Source of the DNA: Propionibacteriales bacterium
GTDB lineage: Bacteria > Actinomycetota > Actinomycetes > Propionibacteriales > Nocardioidaceae
DNA length: 64,000 nt
Direction: 5' to 3'
NCBI GenBank assembly: GCA_026392455.1
Contig: JAPLCB010000004.1
Coordinates: 682,001-746,000, forward strand
Shown here: positions 1-7,140 of the stretch, in pieces
Numbering within the stretch: the stretch's first letter is position 1
How the letters are laid out: each line of letters starts with the position of its first letter
The notes under the pieces: generated by a model
What the model was told of the DNA's origin: nothing
The model's database searches: none
What the model saw: only the letters and a program-made list of their open reading frames with translations
Translations under genes and position numbers: made by a program

Positions 1-301
1 TCCCGCGTTTGTCGAGGTCGGAGACGGTCGTGATCAGGTGACCCATTGAGCGGCCGAGGCGGTCCAGCCTCCAGACGACGAGGGTGTCGCCGGGGCGGAG
101 GTAGTCCAGGGCGGCTGCAAGCTCGGGTCGGTCAGTGCGTGTGCCGCTGGCCTTCTCCTCGTAGACACGGTCGCATCCGGCGTCACGGAGCGCGGTGAGT
201 TGCAGGTCGGTGTGTTGATCGTCCGTGCTCACTCGGGCATACCCGACGACGGTGCCCGTCCTGGGGTTGGCTTCGGGCTTGGTGAGGGAGTTAATGGTCA
301 T
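1..301 (-). CDS. Small serine recombinase (resolvase/invertase family), 3' end cut by window edge
   Basis: This gene is not in the ORF track because it runs off the left edge. Reading the minus strand from the ATG at 301 gives about 100 residues of a site-specific serine recombinase. The N-terminal catalytic motif GYARVSTDDQ places the nucleophilic serine near residue 25, and VVWRLDRLGRS near residues 80-90 is the arginine-rich active-site segment of the family. Proteins of this kind cut and rejoin DNA at short inverted-repeat sites to resolve transposon cointegrates or invert segments. The C-terminal helix-turn-helix must lie outside the window, so I cannot tell a Tn3-type resolvase from an invertase or a degenerate copy. 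Two near-identical 13-bp direct repeats lie about 50 bp upstream. It marks this end of the window as mobile DNA. Confidence 0.9.
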   Translation of the reverse strand, partial: MTINSLTKPEANPRTGTVVGYARVSTDDQHTDLQLTALRDAGCDRVYEEKASGTRTDRPELAAALDYLRPGDTLVVWRLDRLGRSMGHLITTVSDLDKRG

Positions 302-681
302 GCCCGGAACGTCTCACTACCCGTCCGATCCGTCCAGCAAAGCGTGCACGTTGCGAACACGGGTTGTGAACACCGGATCGGTCGTCCTGGGGTGACCGGG
401 TGGTGGTGTCCGTAACCGAACGGATTCGTACAGTCCTGTTCAGCGTTAGCGGTTGGTGCCGATGGGCGGTCCTTTGTGCATTCGGGGTGCGACGGTTGTT
501 GGCGCCGCTCGACCTGGTCGAGATGAGCTGGGTCTGGTGGTCACAGGTCGGCCCAGACCCGTTCTTACTTCGCGGGCGAGGGGGAGGGGCCCTGGGTGCC
601 GGGGCCGTGACCGCCGCGTGCATTTTTTCGGGCTCGGTTCTCGGTGGGGTGAGAGAAGTCATGGTCGACCGTGAGTGCTGA
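302..681. other. Intergenic stretch without a supported gene
   Basis: The ORFs called here in both strands (for example 291..662 minus and 400..681 plus) have no family resemblance, no good start sites and low-complexity proline/arginine-rich translations. Base composition is patchier than in the core genes. Apart from the direct repeats at 350-376 I see nothing supportable. Confidence 0.5.
350..376. repeat. Tandem 13-14 bp direct repeats upstream of the resolvase
   Basis: GTTGCGAACACGG is followed directly by GTTGTGAACACCGG. The two units differ at two positions. They lie about 50 bp upstream of the resolvase start, where a recombinase binding site or promoter operator would be expected. 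The role is inferred from position only. Confidence 0.35.
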
Positions 682-720
682 GAAGCGCCGGAACCCGTTG
701 GTGCTGGGTTCCGGCGCTTC
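682..720 (-). terminator. Strong hairpin downstream of the NHL-repeat gene
   Basis: A perfect 15-bp inverted repeat (GAAGCGCCGGAACCC and its complement) with a 9-nt loop starts 11 nt past the stop codon of the gene ending at 731. No T-run follows on the minus strand, so it is a hairpin terminator or RNA-stabilising element rather than a classical intrinsic terminator. Confidence 0.7.
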
Positions 721-730
721 GGTGGTGTGG

Positions 731-2227
731 CTACTTCAGCGACACGTTCACGCTGTAGGTCGCCCCGTTGTCGAGGGTCACCTTGATCCGGTAGGTGCCG
801 GATGCCAGGCCCTTGGTCGACCAGTTGTACTGGTACACCCCGGCGCTGATCGCGAACACGGTCCCGGTCGACGGGGTCGTGGAAGGCAGGGTCTCCAGGT
901 CGTCCCCGCTGATGCTGGAGCTGACCTTCGTGGCCGAGAAGTACGCCACTGGGCTGGTGGTCGCGACTCCGTTGGCCTTGAGGGTGAACTTCACCGGGAC
1001 GGTCGAGTTGCCTTTGACGATCGAGGACCCGTCGGCGTTCAGCGGCTGCTGCAACCCGAACGCGTAGATGGTCGCCGGGGGCGGTGCAACCAACTTCTCC
1101 ACCCGATGATTGCCGAAATCGGCGATGTAGACGTTTCCGGTCCCGTCGACCGCGACCCCGGTCGGGTAACTCAGGTTGGAGGAGGTTGCGGGCCCTGCGG
1201 TGGGGGCACCAGCGGCGCCGGTGCCGGCGATCACCGAGAGCTGCCCGCCAGGGGTGACCTTCTCCACCCGATGGTTGGACGTGTCGGCTATGTAGACGTT
1301 CCCGGACCCATCGACCGCCACCCCGAACGGGGTTCTCAGGTTGGAGGAGGTGGCGGGCCCTGCGGTGGGGGCACCAGCGGCGCCGGTGCCGGCGATCACC
1401 GAGAGCTGCCCGCCAGGGGTGACCTTCTCCACTTGATTGTTTCTGCCGTCGGCGATGTAGACGTTCCCGGTCCCGTCGACCACGACCCCCGTCGGGTTGT
1501 CCAGGTTGGAGGAGGTTGCGGGCCCTGCGGTGGGGGCACCAGCGACGCCGGTTCCCGCGATCACCGAGAGCTGTCCGCCCGGAGTGACCTGCTCCACCCG
1601 ATGGTTCCCTTGATCGGCAATGTAGACGTTCCCGGACCCATCGACCGCGACCCCGGCCGGGCTGTTCAGGTTGGAGGAGGTCGCAGGCCCTGCGGTCGGG
1701 GCGCCCTGGCTGCTGGTGCCGGCGATCACCGAGAGCTGCCCGCCCGGAGTGACCTGCTCCACCCGATTGTTGCCGTAGTCGGCGATGTAGACGTTCCCGG
1801 ACCCATCAACCGCCACCCCGATCGGTAAGTCCAGGTTGGAGGAGGTCGCAGGCCCTTCGGTCGGGGCACCAGTATCGCCGGTGCCAGCGATCACCGAGAG
1901 CTGCCCGCCCGGAGTGACCTTCTCCACCCGATTGTTGACGGTGTCGGCGATGTAGACGTTCCCGGACCCATCAACCGCCACCCCGTACGGGTTGAACAGG
2001 TTGGAGGAGGTTGCGGGCCCTGCGGTGGGGGCACCAGCAGTGCCGGTGCCCGCAACAAACAACAGGGCGTAGTCGTCGGTCGCTGCGTTGGCCGCACCGC
2101 CCAGGCCCGTGACCACCACCGTGGGAATCACGGCAGCAAGAGCAAGCAACGCAATCCTGGTACTCCGGGTCCGCCTCTCCCGGCCCACAGCACGGCGTCT
2201 ACGGGTGGAACCTCGGTGATCGGACAT
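731..2227 (-). CDS. Secreted six-bladed NHL-repeat protein with C-terminal PxKF domain
   Basis: The protein has 498 residues from the ATG at 2227. I prefer this start over the track's longer ORF because GAGGAG lies 6 nt upstream and an Arg-rich signal peptide follows (residues 1-48, ending GGAANA). Residues of about 55-385 are six NHL-type repeats of exactly 55 residues, each with GVAVDGSGNVYIAD followed by NxRVEKVTPGGQ. Six repeats should close into one beta-propeller. The last 105 residues contain VKGNSTVPVKF, the PxKF-domain signature, an Ig-like fold seen in secreted actinobacterial proteins. A cell-surface or secreted binding role is likely, but no catalytic residues are evident and the ligand is unknown. 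It stands alone, with a hairpin behind it, inside the accessory region. Confidence 0.85.
   Translation of the reverse strand: MSDHRGSTRRRRAVGRERRTRSTRIALLALAAVIPTVVVTGLGGAANAATDDYALLFVAGTGTAGAPTAGPATSSNLFNPYGVAVDGSGNVYIADTVNNRVEKVTPGGQLSVIAGTGDTGAPTEGPATSSNLDLPIGVAVDGSGNVYIADYGNNRVEQVTPGGQLSVIAGTSSQGAPTAGPATSSNLNSPAGVAVDGSGNVYIADQGNHRVEQVTPGGQLSVIAGTGVAGAPTAGPATSSNLDNPTGVVVDGTGNVYIADGRNNQVEKVTPGGQLSVIAGTGAAGAPTAGPATSSNLRTPFGVAVDGSGNVYIADTSNHRVEKVTPGGQLSVIAGTGAAGAPTAGPATSSNLSYPTGVAVDGTGNVYIADFGNHRVEKLVAPPPATIYAFGLQQPLNADGSSIVKGNSTVPVKFTLKANGVATTSPVAYFSATKVSSSISGDDLETLPSTTPSTGTVFAISAGVYQYNWSTKGLASGTYRIKVTLDNGATYSVNVSLK
1095..2084 (-). repeat. Six in-frame 165-bp tandem repeats (NHL blades)
   Basis: The motif at 1095 recurs at 1260, 1425, 1590, 1755 and 1920, an exact 165-bp period. 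Long blocks, such as the segment encoding AGPATSSNL and the one encoding TPGGQLSVIAGTG, are almost unchanged at DNA level. That indicates recent duplication or gene conversion. Differences concentrate in the short segments between the conserved blocks. Confidence 0.9.
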
Positions 2228-2555
2228 GCAAACTCCTCGGGAGGTGGTGACTCTGATCGGACGGTCAAACTGACGCAGAAGAACCCGAGCAACCCCCGTC
2301 GCCCCGCCAGTGTGCCGGAGCGAGAACCAGAAATCCCATCGGGCACAAAGTGGCCTAGACGGAGTTGCCTGACCAGTGACACTTCCGACGAACTCGAAAC
2401 TGGCCGATCGTTGAGGCTTCGTCTTCGTTGGATCATTGGTGACGATCAACGGGCTTTCAGCGTTCCCTGGTTGGCCTTCATGGACCAATTATCACCCGGC
2501 CTTAGCGGCGGGTCTGTTCCCTTGGTGACACAAGGAGAGTGAAAGGTTCAGTCGC
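2228..2555. other. Upstream region of the NHL gene, no gene seen
   Basis: Base composition is lower in GC than in the core. The N-terminal extension of the track's 585-residue ORF and the plus-strand ORF 2216..2542 show no recognisable features. The stretch probably carries the promoter and 5' leader of the NHL-repeat gene. Confidence 0.4.
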
Positions 2556-2790
2556 TCAGCGATCGATCTGGCGAGCCAGAGCTGCGCGAGCCAGCACCAC
2601 GACCCTGCCTCGACCGAACTCGACGACCTGATCGGCCGCCAGCCGTTGAAGGACCCCGTTGACCCCGGGGGCGGGCGCCGCCGACCAGGTCCGCCAGCTG
2701 GTCCTGGGTCAGCGTGATCACCGTGCGCGTTCCCTCGGCAAAGGAGAGGTCGGCCAATCGGTTCAGGCTGGCGCCGCAACAGCACCAGTC
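2556..2790 (-). pseudogene. Decayed C-terminal piece of a Crp/Fnr-type regulator
   Basis: One minus-strand frame reads LNRLADLSFAEG followed by VITLTQDQLADLVGGARP. The next frame continues VNGVLQRLAADQVVEFGRGR and VVVLARAAL up to a TGA at 2558-2556. Joined, this is the winged helix-turn-helix of Crp/Fnr-family regulators, including the recognition-helix pattern seen as LADLVGAxRxTVNRxLxxL. A one-base frameshift falls right at that helix, and the cyclic-nucleotide-binding domain is missing. It is a remnant, not a working gene. Its position beside an adenylate-cyclase-type gene is suggestive but may be chance. Confidence 0.65.
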
Positions 2791-2939
2791 ACACTCCTTT
2801 GCCGCCAACGAACAGAGGCTGGCCCGACCTCAGACCACTCACCGACTGATCTGAGGCCCGGCCCTCCGAGGCCACCCGATGACCAAGGGGTAGCCCCAGG
2901 CTGTTCAGGACGCTCCCCGATCCTTCAGCCCTGAGGGAC

Positions 2940-3010
2940 CTTGAACCCTGTAGCACTGCGGCAGCGATACCCATTGCGTTTCTAGCCAGGTACTGCTGGT
3001 GGTAACTCGC
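2940..3010 (-). pseudogene. Remnant 1 of an msrA 3' end
   Basis: The minus strand encodes YHQQYLAxN, the conserved C-terminal stretch of peptide methionine sulfoxide reductase A, then loses frame. It shares long identical runs (CCACCAGCAGTACCTGGCTA and AATGGGTATCG) with the better-preserved remnant at 4320-4430. The start of the homology sits immediately beyond the stop codon of the cyclase gene. No upstream msrA sequence remains. Confidence 0.6.
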
Positions 3011-3026
3011 AATACCTGGTGTGGAA

Positions 3027-4283
3027 CTAAGCGGTGAGGTGGGGTTCCGCCACGACTGCTGATGGTCCGACGGGCGCGTACAGCTTGATCGGGAAGTGGA
3101 CGCCCTTGACCTCAGCCTCGCCGCGTTCCTCGCACGAAACATTGTCCTTGACCAGGTGCCAGCTCGAGTGGGACAGCAGAATCGAGCCAGGCTCACATTC
3201 CGCCTGGATGCGAGCCGCGATGTTGGTCTGGAGCCCGATGCCGGTGTAGGTGGCACGTCCGTCGGAGCCGAAGGTGCCGACGGAGAGCACGCCGGTGTTG
3301 ATCCCGACCCGGGTACGGAGCTCGTGGTCCAGCCCGATCTTGAACCAGTGCTCGTTCAGGACGGGCATGCTGGCTTGAATCTCGGTCGCTGCGGCAATGG
3401 CGGCAGCGACCTGGTCCTCGGGCGCCTGGCTCAAGGGTGCACCGAAGAGAGCCATCACACCATCGCCGGCGAACTCGTTGAGGGTGCCGCCGTGGCGTTC
3501 GACGATGGTGGCCATTGTGGAGAGGTATTCCTGGACGATCTGTGCCAGGGACTCGGCATCCAGGGAGTCCGCCGTCGCGGTGAATCCGACTACATCGGAG
3601 AACAACACTGTGACCCGGCGGCGTTGCGGTGAATCGATTGTCGCCTCGTTGCCGGACTCGATCGCGTCAGCCACCGACGGCGGCGTGAAGCGGCGAATGA
3701 GGCGTCGCTGGAGAAACGTCTGGCGGGCCCCCTTCTCCAGCAGGTAGGCCGTCAGAACGGCCAGGGAGTAGAAGTTGGCCAGGTAGGCGAAGTTGAGGAC
3801 CCAGGTCTCGGCGCTGGCATCTTTGGCTGCCAGGGTCCAGACCAGGGCCGGGACCATGAGCGCGGCACCGAGGGCTGTCCGGAGGATGCCCACTCGGAGA
3901 AGAGCGGCGAGCCACACCATCGCCATCGGGGTCGCCAGGGTGATGTACAGGCTCGGGAAGTCGGCGACCACCGACATGACCGACCACGTCCAGACCGTGG
4001 CGACCATGGCGACGGTCATGACGTTGCGCTGGTACGGCAACCACCACGGTCGGAAGGTGCACCACAGCAGACCGATGGTCGCCACTTCTTGAACGGCGTG
4101 GATCAGCTCGGCCTGGAACAGTCGGTGCTCGGCCACCAGCGCATGGATCGCGGTGAAGGCCAAGGTCAGGACCAGCCCGGCTGTCGTGCCCGCACGAACC
4201 GAGGGCAGCACGGCCTGACGGTCCGCCGCTAGGAACGCATCCTCCAGCGCAGCATCATCGAAGAGGAGCTTGGGACGACGCAT
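3027..4283 (-). CDS. Membrane-anchored class III adenylate/guanylate cyclase
   Basis: The protein has 418 residues. Residues of about 30-185 contain roughly six hydrophobic helices, and residues of about 215-400 form a class III nucleotidyl cyclase domain. Visible motifs are VTVLFSDVVGFT (first metal-binding aspartate), LNEFAGDGVMALFG (second aspartate), GINTGVLSVGTFG and TNIAARI (the Asn/Arg pair that stabilises the transition state). The expected reaction is ATP to cAMP; GTP specificity cannot be excluded from sequence alone. The helices place it in the cytoplasmic membrane with the catalytic domain inside. The gene stands alone between two msrA 3'-end remnants and has a promoter box 6 nt before its ATG, so it is probably transcribed as a leaderless mRNA. 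It may be an imported signalling cassette. Confidence 0.9.
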   Translation of the reverse strand: MRRPKLLFDDAALEDAFLAADRQAVLPSVRAGTTAGLVLTLAFTAIHALVAEHRLFQAELIHAVQEVATIGLLWCTFRPWWLPYQRNVMTVAMVATVWTWSVMSVVADFPSLYITLATPMAMVWLAALLRVGILRTALGAALMVPALVWTLAAKDASAETWVLNFAYLANFYSLAVLTAYLLEKGARQTFLQRRLIRRFTPPSVADAIESGNEATIDSPQRRRVTVLFSDVVGFTATADSLDAESLAQIVQEYLSTMATIVERHGGTLNEFAGDGVMALFGAPLSQAPEDQVAAAIAAATEIQASMPVLNEHWFKIGLDHELRTRVGINTGVLSVGTFGSDGRATYTGIGLQTNIAARIQAECEPGSILLSHSSWHLVKDNVSCEERGEAEVKGVHFPIKLYAPVGPSAVVAEPHLTA

Positions 4284-4289
4284 GCCGCG

Positions 4290-4295
4290 AGCATA
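4290..4295 (-). promoter_or_regulatory. -10 box of the cyclase gene (leaderless)
   Basis: TATGCT on the minus strand ends 6 nt before the ATG at 4283, so transcription should begin at or next to the start codon. Confidence 0.55.
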
Positions 4296-4319
4296 GCGGC
4301 GGGCCGATCCGGAGGTGGT

Positions 4320-4430
4320 TCAGCGCGGAACCTTGATCCCGGTCGCCGAGTGGCACCGATACCCATTTACGATTTTAGCCAGGTACTGCTGGTGGTGGCC
4401 CTCGGCGTAACTGCCCGGGTCTTGGAGTTG
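4320..4430 (-). pseudogene. Remnant 2 of an msrA 3' end, frame intact to the stop
   Basis: About 36 codons read openly on the minus strand to the TGA at 4322-4320. They include DPGSYAEGHHQQYLAK and NGYRCHSATGIKVPR, which match the C-terminal end of MsrA proteins (xxYHQQYLAKNPxGYC). Nothing upstream matches the catalytic N-terminal part with its GCFWG motif, so only the 3' end is present. Together with remnant 1 it forms a direct repeat around the cyclase gene. Confidence 0.7.
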
Positions 4431-4544
4431 GATCAACTGGTCGCTCCTTTGGGGGCATTCCATGAAGTGACCAATCACGCCGTCGGGCAGAGTTCTTCTA
4501 GTTAAGTTGCGTCCCTACGCGCGCCCGCACGTTGAGGGAGCGAG

Positions 4545-5207
4545 TCATGCGGCGCGGGTGGTGTTTCCGGTCTCGCAGGCCGGATGAGTCGTATGGTGCG
4601 GCTCCGACCGCCAGAGGTCGCCATGCAGGGGCCTCCTGCAAGCGGTGCAGTCCGGTGCAACTGGGCCTTCTGCGCGGAGTTCACCACCGCCCTCGTCGCT
4701 GCCTCGCGGCCGCCAGGCCGCGGCCTGAAGACCGCGGGGCTGCAGGTACGTCACCACGTCGCCTTCTGTACTACTGGGGATGACAACAATGTCACCCATT
4801 TCTTCGGCCTCCTTGGGTGCAGTAGTTGTCACCCATTCCGAATTGCTGGAGTCGGTCTCAGAGCTGTTGTTGAGGTTGTCGGCGGCGAGGCACTCCACAC
4901 AGTCCGTGGGCTCCCACGGGAGGGTGTAGTGGAACTCCTGCTGGTGTCCGCGCCAGCCACCCGAGTGGCGGTGGAGGTAGCCCTCCTCGATCGCCCGGTT
5001 CATCAGCCGGTTCACGTTGCGGACGCTCTGGCGGGTTCGCTCGGCAATGAACTCGTACTTATACGAGTGGATGTTGGCTGCGTGATCGTGGAAATGATCT
5101 CCACCCTTGGTGTCGGCGTGGGCGAGCAGGGCGAGCTTTACCGACGAGGGAAGGCTCGACCTCGGGGCCCGCTCCACCTCGCGCCGCCAGCGGCTGACGG
5201 AGGTCAT
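4545..5207 (-). CDS. Hypothetical winged-helix protein of mobile-element type
   Basis: The protein has 220 residues. I recognise no named family. Residues of about 45-95 (FIAERTRQSVRNVNRLMNRA then EEGYLHRH) look like a winged helix-turn-helix of the sort found in replication-initiator or regulatory proteins on actinobacterial plasmids, prophages and islands. The middle is Asn/Ser/Thr-rich and likely disordered. The C-terminal 40 residues contain a CxxC pair and a late His/Cys group (CTACRRPLHGD ... HPAC) that could bind zinc. Codon choice is less GC-biased than in core genes, with AAC AGC TCT and GAA codons in the linker, which fits foreign origin. No good ribosome-binding site precedes the ATG. 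Confidence 0.6.
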   Translation of the reverse strand: MTSVSRWRREVERAPRSSLPSSVKLALLAHADTKGGDHFHDHAANIHSYKYEFIAERTRQSVRNVNRLMNRAIEEGYLHRHSGGWRGHQQEFHYTLPWEPTDCVECLAADNLNNSSETDSSNSEWVTTTAPKEAEEMGDIVVIPSSTEGDVVTYLQPRGLQAAAWRPRGSDEGGGELRAEGPVAPDCTACRRPLHGDLWRSEPHHTTHPACETGNTTRAA

Positions 5208-5486
5208 GCTCCCGCCGCCGTGGGGGAGTCAAGGTGCTCTCGGGTGGACATTTCCAGGTGGACGGTAGGCAGGAGCCCAGGCATGATTGCCTCGCTTTCG
5301 ATGCACAGCGATTGGCGTCCGACCTGGGGTTCAGACCCAGGACTCCTCGGACGCTTTTCGCATCTCGACCGACTCCACGGATCGGGGGCCGGTGCGAGGC
5401 AAGGTGTCTGCTGGGACCCATTAGTGTCGCGGGCTGCGCGGCTGCGACCCGGTAGCCCGCGACACTAGGTAGCGGCCCGGGCCACG
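5208..5486. other. Gap holding only the inverted repeat
   Basis: Nothing gene-like is seen between the winged-helix gene and the small ORF next to the integrase. The minus-strand ORF 5059..5505 overlaps the winged-helix gene in another frame and shows no domain. The 14-bp inverted repeat lies at 5422-5467. Confidence 0.5.
5422..5467. repeat. Perfect 14-bp inverted repeat beside the integrase
   Basis: TAGTGTCGCGGGCT at 5422-5435 and its exact complement at 5454-5467 flank an 18-nt centre. The outer 10 bases (TAGTGTCGCG) recur at 7043-7052 on the other side of the large serine recombinase gene. It may be a recombinase binding or attachment site, or a transcription terminator. Confidence 0.55.
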
Positions 5487-5495
5487 GTGCGCCCC

Positions 5496-5684
5496 ATGAC
5501 CGCAACGAGCACCCTCGCCCCCACCACCGACCAGGACTCCGCCACGACGGGCCCGGAGGATCGTGCTGCCTGGCTCGCTCGGGTCACTGCCGCGATGCGA
5601 CCGGCGACCGTCGACGACCTCAGGCCGCTGCTCGCGGCACGGGCTCGACGCGCGCGGGATCGAAGCGGTTCGACTTCCGGGTAG
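5496..5684 (+). CDS. Possible small or truncated hypothetical protein
   Basis: This is a 62-codon ORF starting ATG ACC GCA. Its first 45 residues (for example EDRAAWLARVTAAM) read like the start of a real alanine-rich helical protein. It then runs antisense into the last 65 bp of the integrase gene and becomes arginine-rich. It may be the 5' remnant of a gene cut when the integrase region arrived, or chance. No family is recognised. Confidence 0.25.
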   Translation: MTATSTLAPTTDQDSATTGPEDRAAWLARVTAAMRPATVDDLRPLLAARARRARDRSGSTSG

Positions 5685-7014
5685 CTTCGCGGACGACGAT
5701 CGCGGAGAAGAAGGTCTGGATGATCGCCCGCCGCTCATCCCGGTGCAGGGCGTCCCAGTCGTCCCGGGTCAGATCGACGTTGGACGGCCCGCAGTGGGCG
5801 TGGAGCCAGGCCTGGTGGTCCTTGTCGAGGGCGTTCAGCTCGTCCTTGAGCGCGGTCACCGTCGGGAAGGCGATCGACTTGTCCAGACCGCCACTGCGAT
5901 ACGCCTCCATCGTCTCGTTGATCAGGGCCGCGGCTTCTGCCTGACGTGCGCGGCCGTTCCACTCAGGCGCGTCGACGGGGATGCTGCCGACGTTCAGCAA
6001 GCGCCCCAGCACGACCTCCTCGACCAGCGAGTCCACCGCAGGCCCTGATGCCGACAGGTTGTGGCCGTTCGCCTCGCTGCACACGTAGTACCAGAGGCCC
6101 GACTCCGAGCCGCGGCTATTGCCGTACATCACGGCACCGCAGATGCCGCAGCGTGCAACCCCGGAGAGCAGGTATTGGAGAGCACCCTTCCGGGGGATGC
6201 GAGTCCGGCGCTCCTCCCGGACCAGGGCTTCCTGAAGACGCTCGAACATGTCGACCGAGACCAGTGGCTCCCAGGTTCCCGTGACCCGGGCGCCAGCGGC
6301 GTCGAACTGGGGCTGCCCCTTGTAGTCGCGGTAGCCAGCGAGACGCGGGTTCAAGAGGTACTGCCGGACGGTCTTACCGGTCCAGTTCTTGCCCCGCGTG
6401 GTGCGGATGCCGTCAGCGTTCCATTCCTGCGCGAGGACCCGCGGAGACAGGCCTGCCAGGACACGGTCGATGCCGGCCCGGGCGATCGCAGCCTCGTCCG
6501 CGTGAAGGGTCAACTTGTCCTTCTGCCAGCCGAAGGGGCGGGTGCCACCGACCGGGATGCCCTTCTCGGCGAGGTCGAGGTGCTTCCGCTTCACTCGGCG
6601 CGCGGTGTCGGCGCTGGCCTTGTTGGCGAACGCTGCCATGACGCGTGCCATCGTCTGGCCGTCGCCAGCAAGGTCTACGTCGCCCTGGGCGCTGGCGAAC
6701 ACCAGGCCCATGCGTGCCTCGTAAATCTCGATCGCGCGTTCGAGGTCGATCGGCTGCCGCATCAGACGGTCCAGGTCATAGACGACGATCCCCTCGATGA
6801 CACCCCGATCGAGGTCGACGAGCATCCGCTCGAACGCCGGGCGAACCACGCCGGGCTTGTAGGCCGACACGTCGTTGTCGACGTACTCCACGATGGGGGT
6901 CCACCCACGCAAAGTACAGATGGTGGTGCAGTCCTCGATCTGGCGCGTGACTCCAGCCTTGGTGCCGCTGGGGTCGTCCGAAATCCGGGCGTAAATACCT
7001 ACGTTCTTGGTCAC
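5620..7014 (-). CDS. Large serine recombinase (phage-type integrase)
   Basis: The protein has 464 residues from the GTG at 7014, preferred over the GTG at 7023 because GGAGAG lies 8 nt before it. It has the N-terminal resolvase domain with GIYARISDDPSG (catalytic serine near residue 12) and YDLDRLMRQPIDLERAI, then the recombinase domain with TTRGKNWTGKTVRQYLLNP. A zinc-ribbon segment follows (CGICGAVMYGN ... YYVC), and the C-terminal third contains a likely coiled coil. Such enzymes insert and excise phages or islands at attP/attB without host factors. The gene is the last accessory gene before secG, as expected for an integrase lying next to the attachment site. Repeats at 5422-5467 and 7042-7052 flank it. 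Confidence 0.92.
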   Translation of the reverse strand: MTKNVGIYARISDDPSGTKAGVTRQIEDCTTICTLRGWTPIVEYVDNDVSAYKPGVVRPAFERMLVDLDRGVIEGIVVYDLDRLMRQPIDLERAIEIYEARMGLVFASAQGDVDLAGDGQTMARVMAAFANKASADTARRVKRKHLDLAEKGIPVGGTRPFGWQKDKLTLHADEAAIARAGIDRVLAGLSPRVLAQEWNADGIRTTRGKNWTGKTVRQYLLNPRLAGYRDYKGQPQFDAAGARVTGTWEPLVSVDMFERLQEALVREERRTRIPRKGALQYLLSGVARCGICGAVMYGNSRGSESGLWYYVCSEANGHNLSASGPAVDSLVEEVVLGRLLNVGSIPVDAPEWNGRARQAEAAALINETMEAYRSGGLDKSIAFPTVTALKDELNALDKDHQAWLHAHCGPSNVDLTRDDWDALHRDERRAIIQTFFSAIVVREATRKSNRFDPARVEPVPRAAA

Positions 7015-7041
7015 GGACCGCACTCTCCGTTGCGGCGGGGG

Positions 7042-7052
7042 CTAGTGTCGCG
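7042..7052. repeat. Half-copy of the integrase-flanking repeat; possible att core
   Basis: CTAGTGTCGCG lies about 28 nt upstream of the integrase start and 89 bp before the secG promoter box. It matches the arms of the inverted repeat at 5422-5467. This is where a right-hand attachment site would be expected. The assignment is inference. Confidence 0.35.
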
Positions 7053-7140
7053 ACCTCAGGGGTTGGCTGAGGGCTTTCGTGCTTCTACGACATGCCGGTC
7101 CTGTGATCACCCCGTGCGGTCCGAAGTAGCCTGAGTCAGT

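Follow-up and report, generated by a model that had tools for sequence, protein, structure and literature searches.

A class III cyclase gene between two msrA 3′ ends, interpreted as a relict unit of msrA-targeting serine-integrase elements inside an element at tpiA

The window, a 64-kb stretch of a 3.55 Mb genome (G000:C3:682001-746000), contains a class III adenylate/guanylate cyclase gene positioned exactly between two copies, A and B, of the 3′ end of msrA (Table 1). Both copies lie on the minus strand and their cores are 1,393 bp apart. The original prediction, that MsrA C-terminal ends flank the cyclase in one orientation with the catalytic part missing, was borne out at the positions it gave, the size of the unit being adjusted from about 1.3 kb to 1.39 kb. 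No catalytic msrA sequence was found in the 64-kb window, and copy B was not joined to any msrA 5′ part. The sole intact msrA found in this genome is on another contig (G000:C6:90383-90841); the cyclase unit is located between tpiA and secG. The cyclase is the only gene between A and B, integration and transfer genes being absent there.

Copy B (4398-4322, with its reading taken over about 4409-4323) translates as YAEGHHQQYLAKIVNGYRCHSATGIKVPR followed by a stop codon, an MsrA C-terminus open to its end. It was 82% identical to the intact MsrA of this genome over 28 residues (E = 3e-10, protein search) and 82% identical in DNA to the 3′ end of the intact gene over 83 bp (E = 2.9e-15). Copy A contains a frameshift, its reading ends NGYRCRSATGFKVPQG before the stop codon, and its DNA was 81% identical to that of copy B (E = 9.7e-12). 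The copies were scored with an msrA 3′-end profile of 14 rows, which included B and excluded A; the highest scores in the controls were 8.6 bits in the reversed window and 7.8 bits in 20 codon-shuffled windows. The HHQQYLxK motif is short and copy A is frameshifted, so chance or codon-bias likeness mistaken for homology was considered, and was given a negligible probability because copies A and B scored 48.5 and 69 bits against these controls and their similarity spans the entire C-terminus up to the stop codon. An extra CACCAGCAGTACCTG on contig C5 was rejected, with no msrA end there by profile or protein search.

Table 1. Positions of the cyclase unit and of the enclosing element within the window.
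Feature	Position	Strand	Remarks
Enclosing 8.6-kb tpiA element, part in window	1-7097		starts about 1.5 kb ahead of position 1
Copy A, frameshifted msrA 3′ end	3004-2925	-	profile 48.5 bits
Core of copy A	2998-2988	-	left arm not msrA-like; right arm AGAAACGCAATGG, read as decayed element type
Class III adenylate/guanylate cyclase, 418 aa, cargo of the unit	3027-4283	-	Guanylate_cyc, E = 3e-20
Copy B, msrA 3′ end	about 4409-4322	-	profile 69.0 bits
Core of copy B, CAGCAGTACCT	4391-4381	-	msrA-like left arm; element-type right arm GGCTAAAATCGTAAATGG; read as attL type
ORF, 220 aa, between copy B and the integrase	4545-5207	-	no Pfam match
Large serine integrase of the tpiA element, 467 aa	5620-7023	-	Resolvase, Recombinase and zinc-ribbon domains
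attR of the tpiA element, displaced ancestral tpiA 3′ end	7083-7097	+	15-bp repeat TTCTACGACATGCCG and ancestral tpiA-secG spacer beside secG

In relatives of this bacterium additional msrA 3′ ends, all oriented like the gene, were found behind an intact msrA. Three ends were found at each of the loci of G004, G015 and G019 and two at each of those of G021, G276 and G273; family-wide counts are lower bounds, two candidates per genome having been scored. At the msrA of the present genome, a second, decayed end lies 2.7 kb downstream. Catalytic sequence was absent from all the extra copies. The DNA between copies varied from genome to genome, so that the search for other msrA-bounded cassettes proposed in the original prediction returned units with varied cargo: an HxlR regulator with an FAD-dependent monooxygenase-like protein; an FMO-like enzyme with an NADH:flavin oxidoreductase and a TetR regulator; an MpaB-type oxygenase; an HTH and AbiEii pair; and DUF2019 proteins. 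In G008 and G046, where the msrA end is single-copy, the gene directly behind msrA is a YCII gene; in G000, G021 and G276 a YCII gene comes after the last copy, which would be expected if the units had been inserted between msrA and YCII. Many genomes lack YCII downstream, so it was rejected as a marker of the original end in all genomes and retained as supporting evidence only.

Some units showed features of their own. The same HxlR and FAD monooxygenase-like unit occurs downstream of msrA in the present genome (L002:4906-7164) and behind another unit in G004 (L032:9398-11687), and in both the preceding msrA end reads PSV-stop, as if travelling with the unit. The msrA-bounded unit of G019 (L033:7258-8650) holds small genes, including tandem DUF2019 proteins that are possibly immunity genes.

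Integrases were found beside several extra ends. An orphan msrA end in G012 adjoins the start of a large serine recombinase, relatives of which are encoded in 14 genomes of the family, and the integrase start lies within tens of base pairs of an msrA 3′ end in G012, G279, G248 and G176. Including two more distant actinobacteria besides Nocardioidaceae, six elements carry the integrase gene beside a displaced msrA end. Complete msrA elements measured 2.4 kb (Actinopolymorpha pittospori), 4.6 kb (MAG PROP2) and 22 kb (G248). In the single-contig genome G248 the intact msrA is at 3310292, the integrase gene at 3331186-3332736 and a second msrA end just past it, and the 22 kb contain predicted metal-transport and cytochrome-biogenesis-like genes. 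The Actinopolymorpha pittospori and MAG PROP2 elements share this layout, and their recombinases have Resolvase, Recombinase and zinc-ribbon domains. The Actinopolymorpha integrase has 491 aa and that of G248 516 aa. The msrA integrases were not recovered as a single clade, two changes being needed, though they may have a single origin. A phage origin was rejected: compared by blastn with 50,697 phage records, the msrA end yielded only short, partial matches, mostly in structural genes, and among viral contigs no element-arm pattern matched and no close relative of the G248 integrase was encoded. Plasmids gave no match.

The sites of these elements share the core CAGCAGTACCT. On the integrase side, all six sites place TACG[TC] exactly 17 nt before the core, and their right arm is of host type (AAGAACCC-like). 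On the msrA side, the left arm is that of msrA and the right arm contains ACGTA 8 nt after the core; CGTA is present in the right arm of 6/6 msrA sides, 8-9 nt after the core. In msrA genes lacking the element arm, the right arm is of host type and contains neither CGTA nor ACGTA. The TACG[TC] and ACGTA-type motifs are inverted repeats of each other, with the first CA of the core at their centre, which is therefore the putative crossover point. Searched in 84,980 genomes, the element-arm pattern matched nine msrA 3′ ends in actinobacteria, of which the family comparison had already given four, and five unrelated places outside msrA. Each element is predicted to bring its own version of the last ~30 codons of MsrA, a substitute 3′ end that would leave the target gene whole. 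Together these comparisons identify the msrA 3′ end as the predicted attachment site of large serine integrase elements in Nocardioidaceae and two distant actinobacteria, and bear out the earlier suggestion that an element integrating at a gene end carries a copy of its target with it.

In the window, the left arm of copy B was 75% identical to the msrA consensus over 24 nt and that of copy A 29%. Copy B carries CGTA in its right arm and fits the full element-arm pattern, which copy B itself helped to define. The right arm of copy A shows only a decayed form, AGAAACGCAATGG, like the element arm minus one base, an assignment that is a matter of judgement. Copy B is thus of attL type, and copy A resembles an element/element junction rather than an attR. 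No attR-type (element/host) third site closing the cyclase unit was found in the window, and no integrase of the msrA group was found in this genome at E ≤ 1e-25.

Pieces of an msrA locus might also have been copied beside the cyclase by ordinary homologous or illegitimate recombination, with no site-specific recombinase; unequal duplication had been offered earlier as such an alternative. The second copies in G276 and G004 are msrA-like left of the core as well, as duplication would predict, and the position of the window unit away from msrA indicates that some rearrangement or capture happened. In most extra copies, however, including copy A and 6/6 integrase-side copies, similarity to msrA starts at the core, the DNA to the left being unrelated and the right part matching. 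Duplication of a host msrA end would not yield the element arm seen in copy B, and integrases adjoin extra msrA ends. This explanation is therefore regarded as improbable, and unequal duplication was not supported. In the arrays of G004, G015, G019 and G276 the first arm is of host type, and different integrases or processes of another kind may have been involved there.

The cyclase unit lies within a larger structure that the original prediction did not include. Most members of the genus have tpiA next to secG, separated by only a few tens of base pairs; here the two genes are 8.6 kb apart. A few other members of the genus carry different genes in this interval. In the present genome the end of tpiA has changed to YDMPQLGTH, while TTCTACGACATGCCGGTCCTGTGA, the ancestral end, stands with the ancestral spacer beside secG at 7083. 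The other copy of TTCTACGACATGCCG is inside tpiA, outside the window (G000:C3:680469-680483), and the integrase start is 60 bp from the second repeat copy. A direct repeat of the target end, an integrase beside attR and an empty site in relatives were thus all found, identifying the stretch as a second predicted serine-integrase element, at the tpiA 3′ end, with the cyclase unit nested inside it. The integrase of this element was rejected as an msrA integrase, since its start faces the tpiA repeat and it belongs to another clade than the msrA integrases. Its nearest relatives in the family, in G306 and G170, are distant (45-46% identity), and the flanks of their integrase genes contained no tpiA end. 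Against the CcrB model it scored 64.6 bits, for a cut-off of 900; with this score, and with msrA or tpiA instead of rlmH as the site, the elements fall outside SCC/ECC. A hairpin at 5417-5468 lies behind the integrase gene, with arms TAGTGTCGCGGGCT and AGCCCGCGACACTA, and a further CTAGTGTCGCG is present at 7042-7055, between the integrase start and attR.

The mechanism proposed for these structures begins with a large serine integrase that would recombine at the last ~30 codons of msrA, the attachment site of the element carrying a substitute msrA 3′ end. On integration msrA would gain the end of the element (attL), and the original end of the host would be displaced to the far side, beside the integrase gene (attR). 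Repeated integration would build a tandem series in which an msrA 3′ end closes every unit; many of these would be without an integrase and keep their cargo alone, here a class III cyclase. A unit of this kind, cis-mobilizable-like and consisting of copy B, cyclase and copy A, would then have become nested in the second element in the tpiA 3′ end. In Nocardioides immobilis, host/element, element/element and element/host sites surround two units without integrases, in the order seen for B and A and intact. With this order, the element arm of B and the decayed arm of A, the cyclase unit is best read as a relict cassette without an integrase, one unit of a tandem array, and copy A is read as a unit-to-unit junction. 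The repeats, the site anatomy, the complete msrA elements of relatives and the anatomy of the tpiA element are present in the DNA; from them we infer that recombination took place, that B and A were formerly active sites and that the unit was formerly mobile. The explanation as a whole, a relict unit between msrA-element attachment sites now inside the tpiA element, is considered likely. The suggestion that the cassette uses msrA as its insertion site thus held for the targeting of msrA ends and not for the present position of the unit, which is in an element at tpiA.

The unit could have entered the tpiA element either by being picked up as a passenger or by integrating into an msrA-type site already aboard. 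The latter, in which the cyclase unit inserted directly into an attB-like msrA end that the tpiA element carried as a landing site, is possible but the less likely account. In its favour, B and A flank exactly one gene, the unit is nested in the tpiA element and the left arm of copy B is of msrA type. Against it, no attR-type (element/host) site remains in the window, no relative with an empty landing site was found, and within the family the tpiA-element integrase has distant relatives only.

A broader and more speculative proposal, considered doubtful at present, is that the msrA 3′ end of Nocardioidaceae serves as a standing cassette-loading site. Small units without integrases, each closed by an msrA 3′ end and carrying for example a cyclase, a kinase, an AbiEii-type pair, monooxygenases or immunity-like genes, would be moved and stacked in trans by the serine integrases of msrA elements, as a serine-integrase counterpart of integron cassette arrays, and would move between elements, as into the tpiA element.

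The msrA elements resemble SCCmec and ECC, in which large serine recombinases act at the 3′ region of rlmH (PMC6222049), in the use of a large serine recombinase, a conserved gene whose 3′ region holds the site and which contains attL, direct-repeat att sites, variable cargo, and att-bearing remnants without an intact element. They differ in their target, msrA (tpiA for the enclosing element) rather than rlmH, in a single integrase of a different type rather than a ccrAB pair, in their actinobacterial hosts and in the replacement of ~30 target codons. As in CIMEs, elements without integration genes that keep their attachment sites and are known from site-specific accretion of ICEs and IMEs (PMC5704250), integration genes are missing, putative attachment sites persist and units stack in tandem at one gene end. 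CIMEs have been described mostly with tyrosine integrases at gene ends (PMC5704250), whereas the integrases here are serine integrases, and the window unit is without a clear attR and lies inside another element. Site-specific IMEs with serine integrases are described as disrupting their target gene (PMC5704250); the msrA elements, in contrast, would preserve it. Thousands of large serine recombinase targets have been catalogued (PMC10083194), with the same enzyme class, diverse integrases and site-specific integration into conserved genes, and the main text of that catalogue does not name msrA as a target. The attB of the Lactobacillus crispatus prophage PhiM247 includes part of msrA (PMC10763512); this is the 5′ end (96 nt) in a firmicute, a different site from the 3′ end used here. 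Apart from PhiM247 nothing relevant was found, and no report of the msrA 3′ end as an integration target, in the open-access literature (main texts). The msrA 3′ end is therefore apparently an undescribed integration hot spot, a provisional statement because the search covered open-access main texts.

The comparisons supply predicted attB, attL, attR and attP sites for actinobacterial large serine integrases that would exchange the last ~30 codons of their target and thereby leave it whole, and integrase/site pairs that can be tested, one of them in an element of merely 2.4 kb. The element arm offers a simple sequence mark of occupied msrA sites, and some annotated msrA genes of the family would have a 3′ end supplied by a mobile element. 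The window itself presents a case of a relict unit of one element nested within another.

The cyclase was not a recurrent partner of msrA. A paralogue on C7 is 73% identical to the window cyclase and has no msrA ends, the homology of the two ending inside the genes, and msrA ends were likewise missing from the flanks of a second C3 paralogue and of intact cyclases in other genomes. A recurrent msrA-linked role for the cyclase was rejected on these flanks. Cyclase homologues elsewhere thus lacked the msrA sequence that the original prediction expected of them, as far as the intact relatives go, and the two remnants in the window stood well above random sequence; the cyclase held as cargo of the window unit, one cargo among many and not a defining one. 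The prediction also pointed to cyclases neighbouring intact msrA genes, and a single case was found, the only second cyclase-msrA junction: at the msrA of this genome, a C-terminal cyclase fragment (77%, 22 aa, E = 1.3e-7) is followed by the decayed msrA end. The stretch between this fragment and the msrA end aligns with the stretch from the window cyclase to copy A (score 44, against 22.8 +/- 3.9 for shuffles). A unit similar to the cyclase unit therefore probably once sat at the msrA of this genome itself.

Just downstream of copy A, shifting frames at 2548-2808 (minus strand) resemble by eye a Crp-type C-terminal helix-turn-helix; family searches of the ORFs in 2548-2808 gave no match, and the stretch is possibly a decayed cAMP receptor gene. 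Further downstream of the cyclase, 731-2488 (minus strand) encodes an NHL-repeat protein with a C-terminal PxKF domain and six 165-bp repeats. Downstream of the C7 paralogue, L038:2207-4102 (minus strand) encodes a different protein whose C-terminus is similar to that of the NHL-repeat/PxKF protein.
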